From a bacterium (GTDB taxonomy: Bacteria; SM23-81; DAOVCL01): 8,498 nt of DNA. The translations under genes were made by a program, and so were the position numbers. The notes below the pieces were generated by a model, which saw nothing but the letters and a program-made list of their open reading frames with translations, had not been told where the DNA came from and did not search any database. Below, piece after piece: positions 3,028-8,492 of the stretch. The stretch's first letter is position 1. The number at the start of each line of letters is the position of its first letter. The stretch lies in contig JAOZPP010000078.1 in assembly GCA_029932675.1 (NCBI GenBank), positions 7,222 to 15,719 on the forward strand. The letters are read 5' to 3'.

Positions 3028-3064
3028 AGGCCACTTGGGGATTAACCTGAGTGGCCTTCTTTTT
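3028..3064 (+). terminator. Rho-independent-like terminator upstream of the sigma-54 promoter
   Basis: AGGCCACT (3028-3035) pairs perfectly with AGTGGCCT (3050-3057) around a 14-base loop and is followed by TCTTTTT (3058-3064). It would stop readthrough just before the downstream promoter. The loop is larger than usual, so its strength is uncertain. Confidence 0.6.
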
Positions 3065-3080
3065 GGCATAGAAATTGCAT
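3064..3080 (+). promoter_or_regulatory. Sigma-54 (RpoN) -24/-12 promoter
   Basis: TGGCATAGAAATTGCAT matches the RpoN consensus TGGCACG-N4-TTGC with exact spacing: GG at 3065-3066 and GC at 3077-3078, 12 bases apart. The only deviations are T and A in place of the C and G that follow TGGCA. The predicted transcript would start near 3090. Such promoters need an AAA+ activator, usually bound upstream; the TGTAAAC cluster, whose sites lie about 110-230 bp before the predicted start, is a possible activator site (inference). Confidence 0.65.
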
Positions 3081-3089
3081 ATATAACCT

Positions 3090-3346
3090 GCGGATAAGGT
3101 TTCACCAATTCCTTATCTCGTTGCTTTCCTCCAAAGGAAGGGGTGGGATGGGGTAGTCTTCCCTTCTCCACCCCTGGATTGATCTAAAGGTCCTTTATCC
3201 ACACTGAAATGCGGTAGAAGCTTTTCTACTCCTCCTGATTCGTTCCGGTTCGGAATAAGTAGCCGGGGTCATGGGGCCTCAGCCCCTTGGAGGAGGGACC
3301 CTAATTCCTTTCCTTACACCTAAAACCTGCTATGAAAGGAGGATAT
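3090..3346 (+). promoter_or_regulatory. Long structured 5' leader, possible cis-regulatory RNA or small RNA
   Basis: Between the sigma-54 promoter and the 48-codon gene, several stems can form: GATAAGG/CCTTATC (3093-3099 with 3111-3117), GGGGTGG/CCACCCC (3140-3146 with 3168-3174), GTAGAA/TTCTAC (3214-3219 with 3224-3229), TTCCG/CGGAA (3243-3247 with 3251-3255), and nested GGGTC/GACCC (3266-3270 with 3297-3301) around GGGGC/GCCCC (3273-3277 with 3282-3286). CCTCCT at 3231-3236 can pair either with the purine run at 3289-3295 or with the SD AGGAGG at 3337-3342, an anti-SD / anti-anti-SD arrangement. I match it to no known riboswitch class. Confidence 0.45.
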
Positions 3347-3493
3347 ATGGAGCCTAAGGGGAAAAAGCCGAAGTTCAAGTTGAGCTCAGAGCTTGACCAA
3401 GAGCCACCCCGAAAGAAGAAGGGAGTGTGGCAAAAGATTCTGGAAGTATTAGAACATGACCTTAGGAAGGGAGAGGAAAGAGAGGGAGAGTAG
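3347..3493 (+). CDS. Small highly charged protein of unknown function, 48 aa
   Basis: ATG at 3347 follows SD AAAGGAGG (3335-3342) by four bases, a strong initiation site. The protein begins MEPKGKKPKFKLSS, has a basic patch P-R-K-K-K (21-25) and then a probable amphipathic helix from about V27 (V-W-Q-K-I-L-E-V-L-E-H-D-L-R-K), ending in an acidic-basic tail. There is no signal peptide and no cysteine, so it is likely cytoplasmic. The candidate sigma-54 promoter and structured leader upstream suggest regulated expression. Family unrecognised. The main doubt is its length; the strong SD and helix pattern argue that it is real. Confidence 0.55.
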   Translation: MEPKGKKPKFKLSSELDQEPPRKKKGVWQKILEVLEHDLRKGEEREGE

Positions 3494-3505
3494 AGATCCC
3501 ACTGA

Positions 3506-3697
3506 TTGGCAAGGTCCCAGCCCATTAAGGAAAGATTGAAGATATGTCCCACATCAGGAGCATTTGGCAATTGGGGATTTGATGCAGGTTTAGCTCGCGC
3601 TAATAAGAAAGCTCTTGACAAAATATTAGCTATAGTGCTAAAATCGGGGCAATCAATAACCATCGGGATGACTAAGTTTCAAATGTGTTCCTACTGA
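3506..3697 (+). pseudogene. Doubtful 63-codon reading frame, possible gene remnant
   Basis: The frame is open from a TTG at 3506 to TGA at 3695-3697 and has protein-like content (KERLKICPTSGAFGNWGFDA, then a helix-like A-N-K-K-A-L-D-K-I-L-A-I-V-L-K). There is no SD and no ATG start. It lies in the same frame as the 48-codon gene, separated only by TAG at 3491 and TGA at 3503, so it could be the decayed 3' part of a longer gene. It may equally be chance. I recognise no family. The following stretch to 3738 shows nothing else. Confidence 0.25.
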
Positions 3698-3754: not shown

Positions 3755-4582
3755 ATGAAACAGACAAAAATTCTCTTGGTCCTTCTCCTCCTGGCATTGC
3801 CCTTTAGCTTGGTCCAGGGGCAATATGAGTTTGAGATGCTCTATTGGTTTGGCCCAGCCGGGGGATACCCAGGGGAAAAGGGAGTCAAAATCCCACTCTT
3901 CTATGAGGCCAATCAGGAAGTAGAGGCTTTTAATTTTGAGCTGGAGGTTGACTCTACAAAGTTGAGCTTTGCGGACACCGCTGCCATTAAGGGAGCGCTA
4001 ATAGATTCTATATGCTCAAATCCCTTCCTGTGGGAGGTGGATGTCCAGGGGAATCACCTCTATGTGGGTTGTGTTCTCAGTATGACGGGCGGTATAACCC
4101 TCCCGGCTCAATCAGAGGAGGTGCCTCTTTTTGAAGTAATTCTGGATGTTAATCCGGATCTTATCCCACCCGATTCCACCATCCTGGACATAAAGGATGT
4201 AGGGTGGTGGCCAGTAAGTTGGTATCATGGTATTGATGGCACCTTCTACATCCATAAGGAAGGCTGTAGGGAGCAACCAGGGTATAGCCAACCCCGTCAA
4301 TTTGAGCTGGGACAGAATTGGCCCAATCCCTTCAACCCTACCACAACTATAAATTATGAATTGAGAATTAAGAGTTCCCCCCTCTACACCACCCTGAAGG
4401 TCTACAACATCTTGGGGCAGGAGGTGAGGACATTGGTGGATAAACCACAGAAAGGAGGGAGATATGAGGCAGTGTGGGATGGGAAGAGTAACAATGGGAT
4501 GGATGTAGCATCAGGAGTCTACCTCTATCAGCTTAAGGTAGGAAAGTTCAGTCAGACAAGGAAGATGGTGTTGATCAGGTGA
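3755..4582 (+). CDS. Secreted cohesin-like domain protein with T9SS C-terminal sorting domain
   Basis: A 275-aa protein. The start is fixed by the full SD AAGGAGGTGA (3739-3748), six bases before the ATG. Residues 1-22 are a classical signal peptide with cleavage near V-Q-G. Residues about 35-165 look like a cohesin-type beta-sandwich: K-I-P-L-F-Y (45-50), V-E-A-F-N-F-E-L-E-V-D-S-T-K-L (56-70), L-Y-V-G-C (102-106), and V-P-L-F-E-V-I-L-D-V (123-132). Residues 183-275 are the FlgD-Ig-like sorting domain: FELGQNWPNPFNP, L-K-V-Y-N-I-L-G-Q-E-V, W-D-G, G-V-Y-L-Y-Q-L, ending K-M-V-L-I-R. Cohesin folds bind dockerins or other protein partners, but no dockerin is visible here and this domain often appears alone in exported proteins of these phyla. 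The protein is probably exported and held at the cell surface or released. Its exact role is unknown. Confidence 0.8.
   Translation: MKQTKILLVLLLLALPFSLVQGQYEFEMLYWFGPAGGYPGEKGVKIPLFYEANQEVEAFNFELEVDSTKLSFADTAAIKGALIDSICSNPFLWEVDVQGNHLYVGCVLSMTGGITLPAQSEEVPLFEVILDVNPDLIPPDSTILDIKDVGWWPVSWYHGIDGTFYIHKEGCREQPGYSQPRQFELGQNWPNPFNPTTTINYELRIKSSPLYTTLKVYNILGQEVRTLVDKPQKGGRYEAVWDGKSNNGMDVASGVYLYQLKVGKFSQTRKMVLIR
4352..4380 (+). repeat. Heptamer-repeat insertion inside a sorting domain, copy 1
   Basis: An A+T-rich run of AATTATGAATTGAGAATTAA followed by GAGTTCCCC, built from diverged GAATTAA-type heptamers. It encodes N-Y-E-L-R-I-K-S-S-P. The same DNA recurs in the next two sorting domains (6041-6069 and 7588-7616). 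Confidence 0.6.
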
Positions 4583-4682: not shown

Positions 4683-4747
4683 CTCTGTGGGAACCTCGTT
4701 GGATGGTGGATTCAAAGAACTTTTTAGAAAAAGAAGGGGGAATGAGA

Positions 4748-6283
4748 ATGAGATGGTTTGGCCTCTTGGGGGTGCTGGTGGTTTTTGGCTGGGCGAGTTC
4801 CCTGGCTCAGGACATCTCCTTTGGCCCCAGCATCAAGGTCAATGATGATACCACCACCAGGAACCAGTTGTCTCCTTCCTTGGCTGTGGACAGGGAGGGC
4901 AACCTCTACCTGTCCTGGCAGGACCTGAGGAATTTAGACATCACCGGGAGGGGGAACATCTACTTCTCCTCATCCTTTGATGGGGGCAGGACCTGGGCGA
5001 AGAACAGGATGATAGACCCGGACAGGGGCACCCCCAGCGATCCCCATCTGGCCTGTGATAGCTCAGGTAACATCTACTTTGTCTGGGCTGATGAGCCTAA
5101 GGGGGAGATCTACTTCTCTATGTCCTGTGATAAGGGGACAACCTGGACCCAGGCAGTGAGGGTTGATGATGGTCTCCATAGCTCATACGGCCCAGCCTTA
5201 GCTGTGGATGATAAGGGATGGATCTATGTAGTCTGGAGTGATACCAGGGAGGATTGGGATATCTATTTTTCTATGTCCACAGATGCGGGGACCACTTGGA
5301 CTCCCAATGTGAGGGTAAACTACCCACCTTCCAATCTTCAGTTGGCGAGTGACATAGCTGTGGATAAGAAGGGAGTTATCTATGTGGTCTGGTTAGATTT
5401 CCGGAGTGGGGTGAAATGGGATCTGTATTTCTCCAAGTCTGCAGATGCTGGCTCTACCTGGTCTCTGAGCAAGAAAGTGAACAATGATGATATTAACGGA
5501 AGCATAGCAAATGATCCCTCCCTGGTGGTAGACAGCAATGGTGGTTTATATGTAGTTTGGACCTATCAAGGCAATCATACGACAGGCGTCTATTTCTCTC
5601 GCTCTGGGAATGGGGGATGGAGCTGGACAAGGACGGTGAAGGTGAACACAGATTCCATATACCAATACTCAGATCCCTGCCTGAGCATTGATGCCCAGGG
5701 CAGGCTCTATATTGCGTGGCATGCTCTGGCGGTATACCCTGACTCCTTCCATATCTACTTTTCTATGTCCCAGGACAGTGGTAGAACCTGGCTTAGTCCC
5801 AATATTCAGGTAGATGAGATGGATTGGGGGGCTCTGCGACCTTCGCTTGGAGCAATAAAGAATGGTGAGCTTTACATAGCCTGGGATGAAGTAAAGGATT
5901 CCAGAGGTGGAGCTGACATCTACTTCTCCTCAGACACCGTCTTTAGTGGGATAGAGGAGTGGAGGGAGAATCCCGTGGTGATAAAGGACTTTGAGCTGGG
6001 ACAGAACTGGCCCAATCCCTTCAACCCCACCACAATTATTAATTATGAATTGAGAATTAAGAATTCCCCTGTCCGCACCACCCTGAAGGTCTACAACATC
6101 TTAGGGCAGGAGGTGAAAACTTTAGTTAGCGAGGAGCAAAGGGCAGGGAGCTATGAGGTGATCTGGGATGGAAGGGATAACCGGGGCAAGCCAGTGGCCA
6201 GTGGGGTGTACTTCTACAGGTTAGAAGTTAAAGGTGATGGGTTAAAGGCAACGAGGACAAAGAAGCTGGTGTTACTGAGATAA
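4748..6283 (+). CDS. Secreted seven-repeat BNR/Asp-box beta-propeller protein with T9SS sorting domain, copy 1
   Basis: A 511-aa protein from the ATG at 4748, seven bases after GAAGGGGG (4733-4740); the ATG at 4742 is an alternative, and the one at 4703 would place a charged stretch before the signal peptide. Residues 1-22 are a signal peptide (cleavage near L-A-Q). Then come seven repeats of about 50-60 aa, each with S-x-A-V-D-x-x-G-x-x-Y-V-V-W and I-Y-F-S strands. Asp-boxes S-x-D-x-G-x-T-W are seen in repeats 1-4 and 6 (SSFDGGRTW, MSCDKGTTW, MSTDAGTTW, KSADAGSTW, MSQDSGRTW); repeat 5 is degenerate (SGNGGWSW) and repeat 7 lacks one. The fold is sialidase-like, but I see no arginine-triad context proving sialidase activity, so a binding or structural role is as likely. 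Residues 415-511 form the FlgD-Ig/T9SS tail. The stop is 17 bp before the next start. Confidence 0.85.
   Translation: MRWFGLLGVLVVFGWASSLAQDISFGPSIKVNDDTTTRNQLSPSLAVDREGNLYLSWQDLRNLDITGRGNIYFSSSFDGGRTWAKNRMIDPDRGTPSDPHLACDSSGNIYFVWADEPKGEIYFSMSCDKGTTWTQAVRVDDGLHSSYGPALAVDDKGWIYVVWSDTREDWDIYFSMSTDAGTTWTPNVRVNYPPSNLQLASDIAVDKKGVIYVVWLDFRSGVKWDLYFSKSADAGSTWSLSKKVNNDDINGSIANDPSLVVDSNGGLYVVWTYQGNHTTGVYFSRSGNGGWSWTRTVKVNTDSIYQYSDPCLSIDAQGRLYIAWHALAVYPDSFHIYFSMSQDSGRTWLSPNIQVDEMDWGALRPSLGAIKNGELYIAWDEVKDSRGGADIYFSSDTVFSGIEEWRENPVVIKDFELGQNWPNPFNPTTIINYELRIKNSPVRTTLKVYNILGQEVKTLVSEEQRAGSYEVIWDGRDNRGKPVASGVYFYRLEVKGDGLKATRTKKLVLLR
6041..6069 (+). repeat. Heptamer-repeat insertion inside a sorting domain, copy 2
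   Basis: AATTATGAATTGAGAATTAA followed by GAATTCCCC, encoding N-Y-E-L-R-I-K-N-S-P. It differs from the 4352 copy at one base and from the 7588 copy at one base. Confidence 0.6.
6227..6273 (+). repeat. 47-bp identical 3' coding segment, copy 1
   Basis: Bases 6227-6273 equal 7774-7820 exactly. They encode the last residues of the sorting domain (V-K-G-D-G-L-K-A-T-R-T-K-K-L-V). The propeller parts of the two genes are far less similar in DNA, so the tail has been homogenised or recently copied. Confidence 0.85.
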
Positions 6284-6300: not shown

Positions 6301-7830
6301 ATGAGAGGGTTGAAATTAGGATTTTTGATGGCTTTTATCTTAGGGGTCTTTTTATGGTCAGGAATGCTTTTAGCTCAGGATGCGAGCTTTGGGCCAAGTA
6401 TCAGGGTGGATGATGCTGATACAAGCAGTTGGGGTTGTTTTTCTCCGACACTGGCAGTGGATAGGAATGGCAACATCTATGTAGCCTGGCAAGACGGGAG
6501 GAAGAATCAAGGTTGGGACATCTATTTTTCCAGTTCCTTTGATGGAGGAACAACCTGGAGCAAAAATGTAATGGTAAGCGATAAAATCGAGCCACCCATT
6601 CCGACCCTCTCTCTAGAGGTTGATGCTAAGGGCAATCTTTACTTAGTCTGGGAAGATATGGGAACGGGCAATGTTTATTTTTCTATGTCCCGAGATAGTG
6701 GGAAAAGTTGGACTTCAGAAATACAGGTGAATGATTGGGGACACTGCTCAGCTAAAATGTCCCCCTCTTTAGCTGTGGATGATACTGGGATTACCTATGT
6801 AACCTGGGCAGATGACAGGTGGGGCCCAATGTTTCCTGGCATCTGCTTTTCAATGTCTACCAATGCTGGGACAACGTGGGTTCCTAATGTATGGGTAATA
6901 GAGCCCAACGATGTAGCTCATTGTCTTTCTTCTATTGCCCTCGATAGGCAAGGAAATATCTATGTGGTCTGGGTTGACAGCATCACACTTTTCAGTGCCG
7001 ATATCTACTTTTCTAAGTCTATCGATGGTGGGAAGAGATGGTCCCCAAAGATCAAGGTGAATAATGTTCCTGGAGGAATCTCATTCTATCCCTCTATAGC
7101 CATAGATAAAGGTGGCATCATCTATGTTGTTTGGCAGTATGAATTCAGAGACGTTTACCTTGGCAGATCCACCGATGGTGGCATAACTTGGAATGACCCC
7201 AGCATCAAGGTAAACAATGATAGTTTAAGCGCCAACGATGCTCAACCCCAGATTGATGTAGATGACAAGGGTAAGTTGTATGTGGTCTGGGATGCGGCTT
7301 CCCAAATTCTATTTGCTATGTCCAGTGATAGTGGTAGGACCTGGAGTGATCCGAGTATAAGGGTTGATGATAGCACTTTGTTTCTCTCTGCGGATCCGTG
7401 CCTTGATCTTGGGCCAGATGGGATCTACGTTGCCTTCAGAAGCCAAAAACAGACAGGTGCGCCTCACGTCTACTTTACCAAAGGTTCGCTAACTGGTATT
7501 AAGGAGGAGCCGGGGGATGGGTATCAGATATTGGATTACAGGCTTAAGCAAAACTGGCCGAATCCGTTTAATGCAACCACAATCATTAATTATGAATTAA
7601 GAATTAAGAATTCCCCCATCCACACCATCCTGAAGATTTACAACATCCTGGGGCAAGAGGTGAAAACTTTAGTTAGCGAAGAGCAAAGAGGAGGGAGCTA
7701 TGAGGTAACCTGGGATGGAAGGGATAACACTGGTAGCCCTGTGGCGAGTGGGCTATATCTCTGTAGGTTAGAGGTTAAAGGTGATGGGTTAAAGGCAACG
7801 AGGACAAAGAAGCTGGTGTTGCTCAGGTGA
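6301..7830 (+). CDS. Secreted seven-repeat BNR/Asp-box beta-propeller protein with T9SS sorting domain, copy 2
   Basis: A 509-aa protein; SD AAGGAGGG (6285-6292) lies eight bases before the ATG. Residues 1-25 are a signal peptide (cleavage near L-L-A-Q), followed by D-A-S-F-G-P-S-I-R-V-D-D, matching the mature start of its upstream paralogue. Seven propeller repeats follow with Asp-boxes SSFDGGTTW, MSRDSGKSW, MSTNAGTTW, KSIDGGKRW, RSTDGGITW and MSSDSGRTW; the seventh has none. Residues 413-509 are the T9SS tail with the variant NPFNA in place of NPFNP. Repeat number matches the paralogue, so this is a whole-gene tandem duplication; the propeller has diverged while the tail DNA stays near-identical. 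Both are likely co-transcribed and exported to the surface or medium. No enzyme activity can be assigned from visible residues. Confidence 0.85.
   Translation: MRGLKLGFLMAFILGVFLWSGMLLAQDASFGPSIRVDDADTSSWGCFSPTLAVDRNGNIYVAWQDGRKNQGWDIYFSSSFDGGTTWSKNVMVSDKIEPPIPTLSLEVDAKGNLYLVWEDMGTGNVYFSMSRDSGKSWTSEIQVNDWGHCSAKMSPSLAVDDTGITYVTWADDRWGPMFPGICFSMSTNAGTTWVPNVWVIEPNDVAHCLSSIALDRQGNIYVVWVDSITLFSADIYFSKSIDGGKRWSPKIKVNNVPGGISFYPSIAIDKGGIIYVVWQYEFRDVYLGRSTDGGITWNDPSIKVNNDSLSANDAQPQIDVDDKGKLYVVWDAASQILFAMSSDSGRTWSDPSIRVDDSTLFLSADPCLDLGPDGIYVAFRSQKQTGAPHVYFTKGSLTGIKEEPGDGYQILDYRLKQNWPNPFNATTIINYELRIKNSPIHTILKIYNILGQEVKTLVSEEQRGGSYEVTWDGRDNTGSPVASGLYLCRLEVKGDGLKATRTKKLVLLR
7588..7616 (+). repeat. Heptamer-repeat insertion inside a sorting domain, copy 3
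   Basis: AATTATGAATTAAGAATTAA followed by GAATTCCCC. Here the heptamer GAATTAA is clearest: two full copies plus a partial third (GAATT, then CCCC). It encodes N-Y-E-L-R-I-K-N-S-P in the same frame as the other two copies. Confidence 0.6.
7774..7820 (+). repeat. 47-bp identical 3' coding segment, copy 2
   Basis: Exact copy of 6227-6273 at the end of the second propeller gene. Further blocks upstream in the two sorting domains (for example the GAGGTGAAAACTTTAGTTAG run at 6111-6130 and its counterpart) are also identical. Confidence 0.85.
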
Positions 7831-8036: not shown

Positions 8037-8492
8037 ATGAAAGCTTTGAGAAATTTCTTCATGATCTCCTCGGTTCTTTTGGCTATTCTTGTTTTAGCCG
8101 GAGGAGATGCTTCTGCTATAGTGCAGAAAAGCCTGACATATAGCCAGTCTCAGCTTTCTTTCAGCCATATTGAGGGCTATGACTTCGTCTCCTTGCCTGG
8201 CTGTATCCATATGGGAGCTCCTGGAGAGCCATCTCTACCGGTGAGGACTCTCCGGTTTGCCATCCCTAGGGATACCCGGGTAGCTGGTTTCCACATAACC
8301 GCTCTTGATTCCGAGGAAGTTCCGGGGACCTATCTTATCTATCCGGTTCAGGAACCAATAATCTTTGACGGTTCCCCCCCGCCGGATTTCGTCCCTCCGG
8401 ATACATCGATCTATAACTCCTCGGAGCCTTTCCCCGGGGTGGTCTTAACCCAACTTTCGCTCTTTGAAAAAATTTTCCTTGTTTTTCAATGA
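8037..8492 (+). pseudogene. Truncated gingipain-type (peptidase C25) precursor, N-terminal part only
   Basis: SD AAGGAG (8026-8031) lies five bases before the ATG. Residues 1-27 are a signal peptide (cleavage near A-S-A). Residues about 28-136 match the pattern of the C25 propeptide / N-terminal region: G-A-P-G-E-P-S-L-P-V-R-T-L-R-F-A-I-P (60-77), V-P-G-T-Y-L-I-Y-P-V-Q (95-105), P-P-P-D-F-V-P-P-D (114-122), and S-E-P-F-P-G-V-V (129-136). Family members usually continue for many hundreds of residues with His and Cys catalytic residues and often a T9SS tail. Here the frame goes on for 15 unrelated codons and stops with TGA at 8490-8492. The break at about 8444 coincides with a switch to A+T-rich sequence, suggesting disruption by an insertion. 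A frameshift or assembly junction is the alternative. The peptidase domain itself is not in the window. Confidence 0.65.

Follow-up and report, generated by a model that had tools for sequence, protein, structure and literature searches.

A probable sigma-54 output operon in a repeated module of exported peptides and TPR activators from a putative Zixiibacteriota genome

Several described regulatory systems resemble parts of the locus analysed here. RRNPP quorum-sensing pairs, described from Firmicutes (PMC10075063), combine a cytosolic TPR receptor of 250-500 aa with a Sec-exported propeptide of 10-100 aa encoded next to it, whose mature form is re-imported and bound by the TPR domain. Likewise, the gene for a small, Sec-exported peptide adjoins the gene for a TPR regulator at 13/13 loci of the present genome, with export judged by eye. 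In contrast to those pairs (PMC10075063), the activators found here are ~930-1030 aa long with GAF and AAA+ sigma-54 domains and the peptides measure ~104-118 aa, both falling outside the RRNPP size ranges; moreover, the host is a non-Firmicute with type IX secretion, and its peptides are not known to be re-imported or bound. A second parallel is the PEP-CTERM box with PrsR, PrsK and PrsT, i.e. a response regulator, its kinase partner and a TPR lipoprotein encoded separately (Haft et al. 2006, PMC1569441). Both systems use sigma-54 sites and a Fis-type enhancer-binding activator for a class of exported proteins that undergo sorting and whose genes follow large intergenic regions, and both include a TPR protein. 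Compared with that system (PMC1569441), the differences are that the activator itself contains the TPR and GAF parts and has an exported peptide as its companion, the cargo carries tails of the type IX secretion system (T9SS) type, and a structured leader and a small protein stand between promoter and cargo. A PrsR response regulator, expected of the PEP-CTERM/PrsR regulon, was looked for without success: the Pfam matches displayed for four activators include no receiver domain, and the activator encoded on our contig reaches 323 bits against TIGR02915, with a cut-off of 503. Like NtrC-type enhancer-binding proteins (NifA, NtrC, NorR), the activators combine an AAA+ sigma-54 domain with a Fis HTH, and inverted repeats on our contig lie ~200 bp upstream of the promoters as candidate sites; for sensing, they carry GAF together with an extended series of TPRs. 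Finally, sigma-54 and enhancer-binding proteins also drive a quorum regulatory RNA, which is an sRNA (PMC10162802), while here a 5' leader is followed by an ORF. A search of the open-access literature by fixed terms, with partial coverage, returned no description of the whole arrangement, which is weak evidence of novelty.

We analysed a window, i.e. the whole stretch of 8,498 nucleotides, within contig C76 of a 3.03-Mb genome; positions without a contig prefix refer to it, and the elements of the unit lie on its plus strand, apart from an inverted repeat given without strand. With its promoter and leader, the feature under study probably heads an output operon that belongs to a repeated module built around a peptide-paired TPR/sigma-54 activator. 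On our best reading, the predicted module runs from an exported peptide of ~104-118 aa through a TPR-GAF-AAA+-Fis activator, a terminator, a sigma-54 promoter, a structured leader and a small charged protein to exported cargo. As judged from gene order and sequence similarity, the module is present in about a dozen copies in the genome, and the window holds one of them, partly worn. The first-pass annotation had proposed a tightly controlled unit, which fits this picture as part of something larger. Its other suggestion, that the unit stands by itself and yields a small product, was not supported and gives way to that of one copy among about a dozen with activator, exported peptide and secreted-protein genes.

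The sigma-54 promoter TTGGCATAGAAATTGCA (3063-3079) has GG at 3065-3066 and GC at 3077-3078, with the consensus spacing of 10 bp. Directly before it lies a terminator-like hairpin with T run (3028-3064), formed by a 12-bp stem (3028-3057) and followed by TTCTTTTT, so the first-pass observation of a correctly spaced -24/-12 element right after such a hairpin was accurate. A hairpin of the CCACTTAG/CTAAGTGG type is also found immediately 5' of the promoter in most other units. Across the whole genome, the pattern YTGGCAYNNNNNTTGC has 33 matches against one for the reversed pattern, and sites of this type are thus not background. Moreover, rpoN is encoded in the genome (Sigma54_DBD, PF04552, E 1.3e-58), and its absence, which would have refuted the first-pass reading, can be dismissed. 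We compared 16 leader units drawn from the window's genome, G001 and G041 (three related Zixiibacteriota genomes), where L040 and g41C239 are one locus and were counted once. A sigma-54-type site precedes the leader in 16/16, and the first RNA stem begins 12-15 nt (once 20) past the -12 element, which places it at about the expected start of a sigma-54 transcript in all 16 units. Some of the sites are imperfect, with GT replacing GC at -12 in C104 and C7, and those of C9 and g41C231 start with TGGGCAC. Upstream of the C11 copy, no sigma-54-type site was present within the stretch examined. In the window, the predicted transcript of the predicted promoter would start at ~3090.

The candidate activator of this promoter is encoded on the same contig outside the window (C76:3640-6456); its 938 aa include TPR, Sigma54_activat and Fis HTH domains. 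Three activators from other units possess the same domains plus GAF matches. An inverted repeat at 2853-2883, with the core GTAAACT-N7-AGTTTAC at 2858-2878 and further half-sites at 2885-2890, 2941-2946 and 2971-2976, is the putative enhancer (UAS). The core was first spotted by reading the region and then searched genome-wide, which gave just two perfect copies, C76:6714-6734 and C76:10079-10099, the latter being the window copy. Both perfect repeats lie ~200 bp upstream of sigma-54 sites (C76:6923 and window 3063), and five GTAAAC/GTTTAC half-sites fall within 2840-2995 compared to a mean of 0.16 in stretches of the same size. This co-location suggests that the C76 activator binds the repeat; comparable shared upstream sites were not established for any of the other units. 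In the proposed mechanism, the activator would be idle as long as no signal, perhaps the companion peptide, reaches its TPR/GAF part; once triggered, it would bind the GTAAACT-N7-AGTTTAC sites and loop to sigma-54 polymerase at 3063-3079 to open the promoter. The resulting transcript would begin near 3090 with a hairpin that might protect the 5' end or serve as a regulatory domain, and would carry the small protein and, through read-through, the secreted-protein genes, which seemingly also have their own sigma-70 promoter.

An ORF of ~104-118 aa with a signal-peptide-like N-terminus, as judged by eye and a simple hydrophobicity rule, lies upstream of the activators. In this genome, the peptide family has 13 matches, of which that at C30 is weak (E 0.0016), and the 13 matches of the activator family fall at the same 13 loci. 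As a control, we read the surroundings of eight other sigma-54 activators of the genome (GAFTGA motif, outside these loci) and found an exported upstream ORF in 0/8; a loose filter gave candidates for 5/8, which we read as pieces of ordinary genes. One control, L211, has a TPR-like N-terminus, and hence the control set does not strictly consist of TPR-less activators. The pairing extends further: the activator is present at E <= 1e-55 in 18/386 genomes of wide kinship, in 13/20 activator loci outside the window's genus its immediate upstream neighbour is a small ORF that looks plausibly exported (in the remaining seven the activator start was not placed or nothing was found), and similar peptide-activator pairs are found in other phyla. 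At L184 (G012), a locus from another phylum with an exported peptide and a TPR sigma-54 activator, a TPR-like protein is located upstream on the opposite strand. A Phr_nterm match of one exported peptide (E 0.023, below the cut-off) was set aside as signal-peptide similarity. Tentatively, and with somewhat less than even confidence, these pairs might represent a widespread counterpart of RRNPP outside Firmicutes, in which exported peptides act through TPR-GAF-sigma-54 activators (13 copies here, at least one with a locus-specific enhancer) on target transcripts that open with a structured RNA of a new family and also code for a small charged protein alongside T9SS cargo. The module offers a candidate case, open to testing, in which sigma-54 activators would sense peptides.

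The leader proved structured in part. Over its first 91 nt (3090-3180), the predicted folding is stronger than in shuffled sequences (z -3.2, 1/200 as good), while the whole leader (3090-3360) does not differ significantly (z -1.5, 11/200 as good), and the five or more stems named in the first-pass annotation are by themselves no more than chance. The structured part corresponds to module B (3090-3177), three hairpins at 3090-3121, 3124-3141 and 3139-3175 that are common to units C111, C98 and C7. In these four sequences (n=4), 92% of cells are paired compared to <=67% in slid controls, and three two-sided pair changes occur in stem 1, all in the window copy. Other units contain two further modules, both strongly conserved, loops included. 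Module A is found in 12 units, starts at the predicted transcript start and has 96.9% of cells paired versus <=56% in slid controls, with no clear excess of covariation over shuffles. Module C, aligned from 10 copies of which two come from a single leader, has 98.7% of cells paired versus <=55% and eight pairs with two-sided changes, and its covariation score was matched by 0/500 shuffles; one of its helices was put in by hand after inspection. All covariation counts refer to sequences that are related to one another and not to independent events. The comparative folding proposed earlier gave good support for module C, three two-sided changes for module B, and no clear excess of covariation for module A; a lack of conserved stems, which would have told against the first-pass reading, was not observed.

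Modules A and C bear on what the transcript is for. One might argue that the sigma-54 transcript acts mainly as RNA, with the small protein as its partner, the cargo being expressed from its own sigma-70 promoters. The start of module A at the predicted transcript start, the conservation of both modules down to their loops, and the covariation of module C point in this direction, as do the sigma-70-like sites after most small ORFs, the Lys-rich composition and single predicted helix of the protein, and the Rfam search, in which neither the window nor any of eight unit loci reached a gathering score and which leaves modules A and C as candidate RNA families. On the other hand, the window leader consists of module B only, without modules A and C, and the covariation of module A is weak; we regard this reading as rather unlikely, if the more serious of the alternatives. 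A different and slightly less likely possibility is that the leaders are mostly piled-up, functionless hairpin repeats and that the window unit is a decaying duplicate. Short hairpins between the modules do occur in dozens of widely dispersed copies elsewhere, and the leader segment 3184-3296 resembles repeats scattered through the genome and its relative, parts of it matching G001 C54, G001 C92 and G000 C84, places that showed no unit of this kind; the truncated protein of the window (see below) would fit as well. However, in the genomes searched, modules A and C turned up nowhere but in these units, in one orientation and after the promoter, and module C covaries, which speaks against functionless repeats. 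We keep to the reading of a promoter and leader within a peptide-paired activator module, of which the window carries a reduced member with module B only and a truncated protein.

The segment before the small gene invites a further explanation, namely that the leader is a cis-acting riboregulator hiding the Shine-Dalgarno (SD) sequence of the small ORF, as the first-pass annotation had considered possible for CCTCCT at 3231-3236. A good SD was correctly noted: AAAGGAGG lies upstream of ORF 3347-3493, within a ribosome-binding context ACACCTAAAACCTGCTAT..AAGGAGG (3312-3346) whose positions 3312-3343 are 88% identical to the C9 unit just 5' of its small ORF. Unit leaders are long and structured, and in one fold (3090-3400) CCTCCT pairs with the SD at a probability of ~0.74. 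Yet the probability of an unpaired SD is 0.31 in the window and 0.15 +- 0.09 with shuffled leaders, and in none of the units does SD accessibility differ from that of its shuffles. Moreover, CCTCCT sits between or within segments matching dispersed repeats, and the pairing segment is not common to the units. Sequestration beyond chance was rejected on these comparisons, since the window SD is no less accessible than in shuffled leaders, and a riboregulator of this kind appears very improbable.

The preferred reading, an output operon under a peptide-paired activator, places a small charged protein directly behind the leader. The window ORF (codons 3347-3490, stop 3491-3493) encodes 48 aa and is a C-terminally truncated member of a family of 53-59 aa, most of which end in SRDP(S/T)DW or a related tail. 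A profile search found about ten homologues in the window's genome and three in G001, and a DNA search likewise recovered relatives of the small ORF, both from this genome and from another of its genus. In a scan of named genomes, which may leave out the window's own, the family was found only in MAGs titled Candidatus Zixiibacteriota, and the window probably belongs to this phylum. At 3489-3509 a different frame retains SRDPTDW, a relic of the family C-terminus, and profile columns 41-54 match C76:10689-10730, likewise out of frame; the window copy has lost its conserved C-terminus through a frameshift and may be decaying. The 48-aa charged protein described at first is thus part of a real family conserved in relatives, whereas its length reflects truncation. 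For every computable pair, dN/dS is <1 (mostly 0.1-0.5), although synonymous change is saturated in most pairs with the window copy, which yield no ratio; the ratios indicate that the family is under purifying selection. An ORF below the usual length cut-off hence turns out to be a conserved protein. It is Lys-rich, with a single predicted helix and a low-confidence remainder (mean pLDDT 65.9). No family match at E up to 0.1 was obtained in Pfam or in NCBIfam, the latter scanned with the C9 homologue, and no relative with a solved structure was found.

Downstream of the small ORF, exported cargo would connect sigma-54 control with type IX secretion. An exported protein with a T9SS type A sorting domain (3755-4582; TIGR04183 E 1.2e-8, FlgD_ig E 1.2e-9) is followed by an exported repeat protein (4703-6283) and an exported BNR-repeat protein with a T9SS-type tail (6301-7830; BNR_2 E 3.7e-13, TIGR04183 E 5e-6), the latter two being kin that share repeats D1-D6 and the same C-terminal tail. 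TIGR04183 scores above its cut-off for 3755-4582 and 6301-7830. Only window genes were tested against this family model; in most units with enough sequence, T9SS-type tails 3' of the small ORF were judged by C-termini, C104 being an exception. Before the cargo gene lies a sigma-70-like promoter, TTGACA-N18-TAAAAT with TG (3615-3644, 11/12 matches), and cargo expression therefore need not depend on sigma-54. A similar site is found 3' of the small ORF in most units, several of them close copies of each other.

Further features surround the unit. At the far end of the window, 8037-8492 has a Propeptide_C25 match (E 2.6e-5), and the protein terminates close to where the contig does; its final residues QLSLFEKIFLVFQ recur as the last ones of an ORF at the edge of contig C26, perhaps through a repeat or an effect of assembly. 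Just 5' of the window, a run of N occupies C76 ~7120-7221. Two small ORFs at 9-230 and 461-718 (73 and 85 aa) are similar to each other, with signal-peptide-like N-termini, and precede two larger proteins, one of 396 aa that weakly matches SGL and one of AhpC/TSA type; upstream of the two small ORFs is C76:6923, the contig's second sigma-54 site. Beside these small exported ORFs, the intergenic repeat TTCGGGRCCCTGGATAAA occurs in direct orientation at 262-289 and 737-764, and a similar inverted copy is located at ~420-442.
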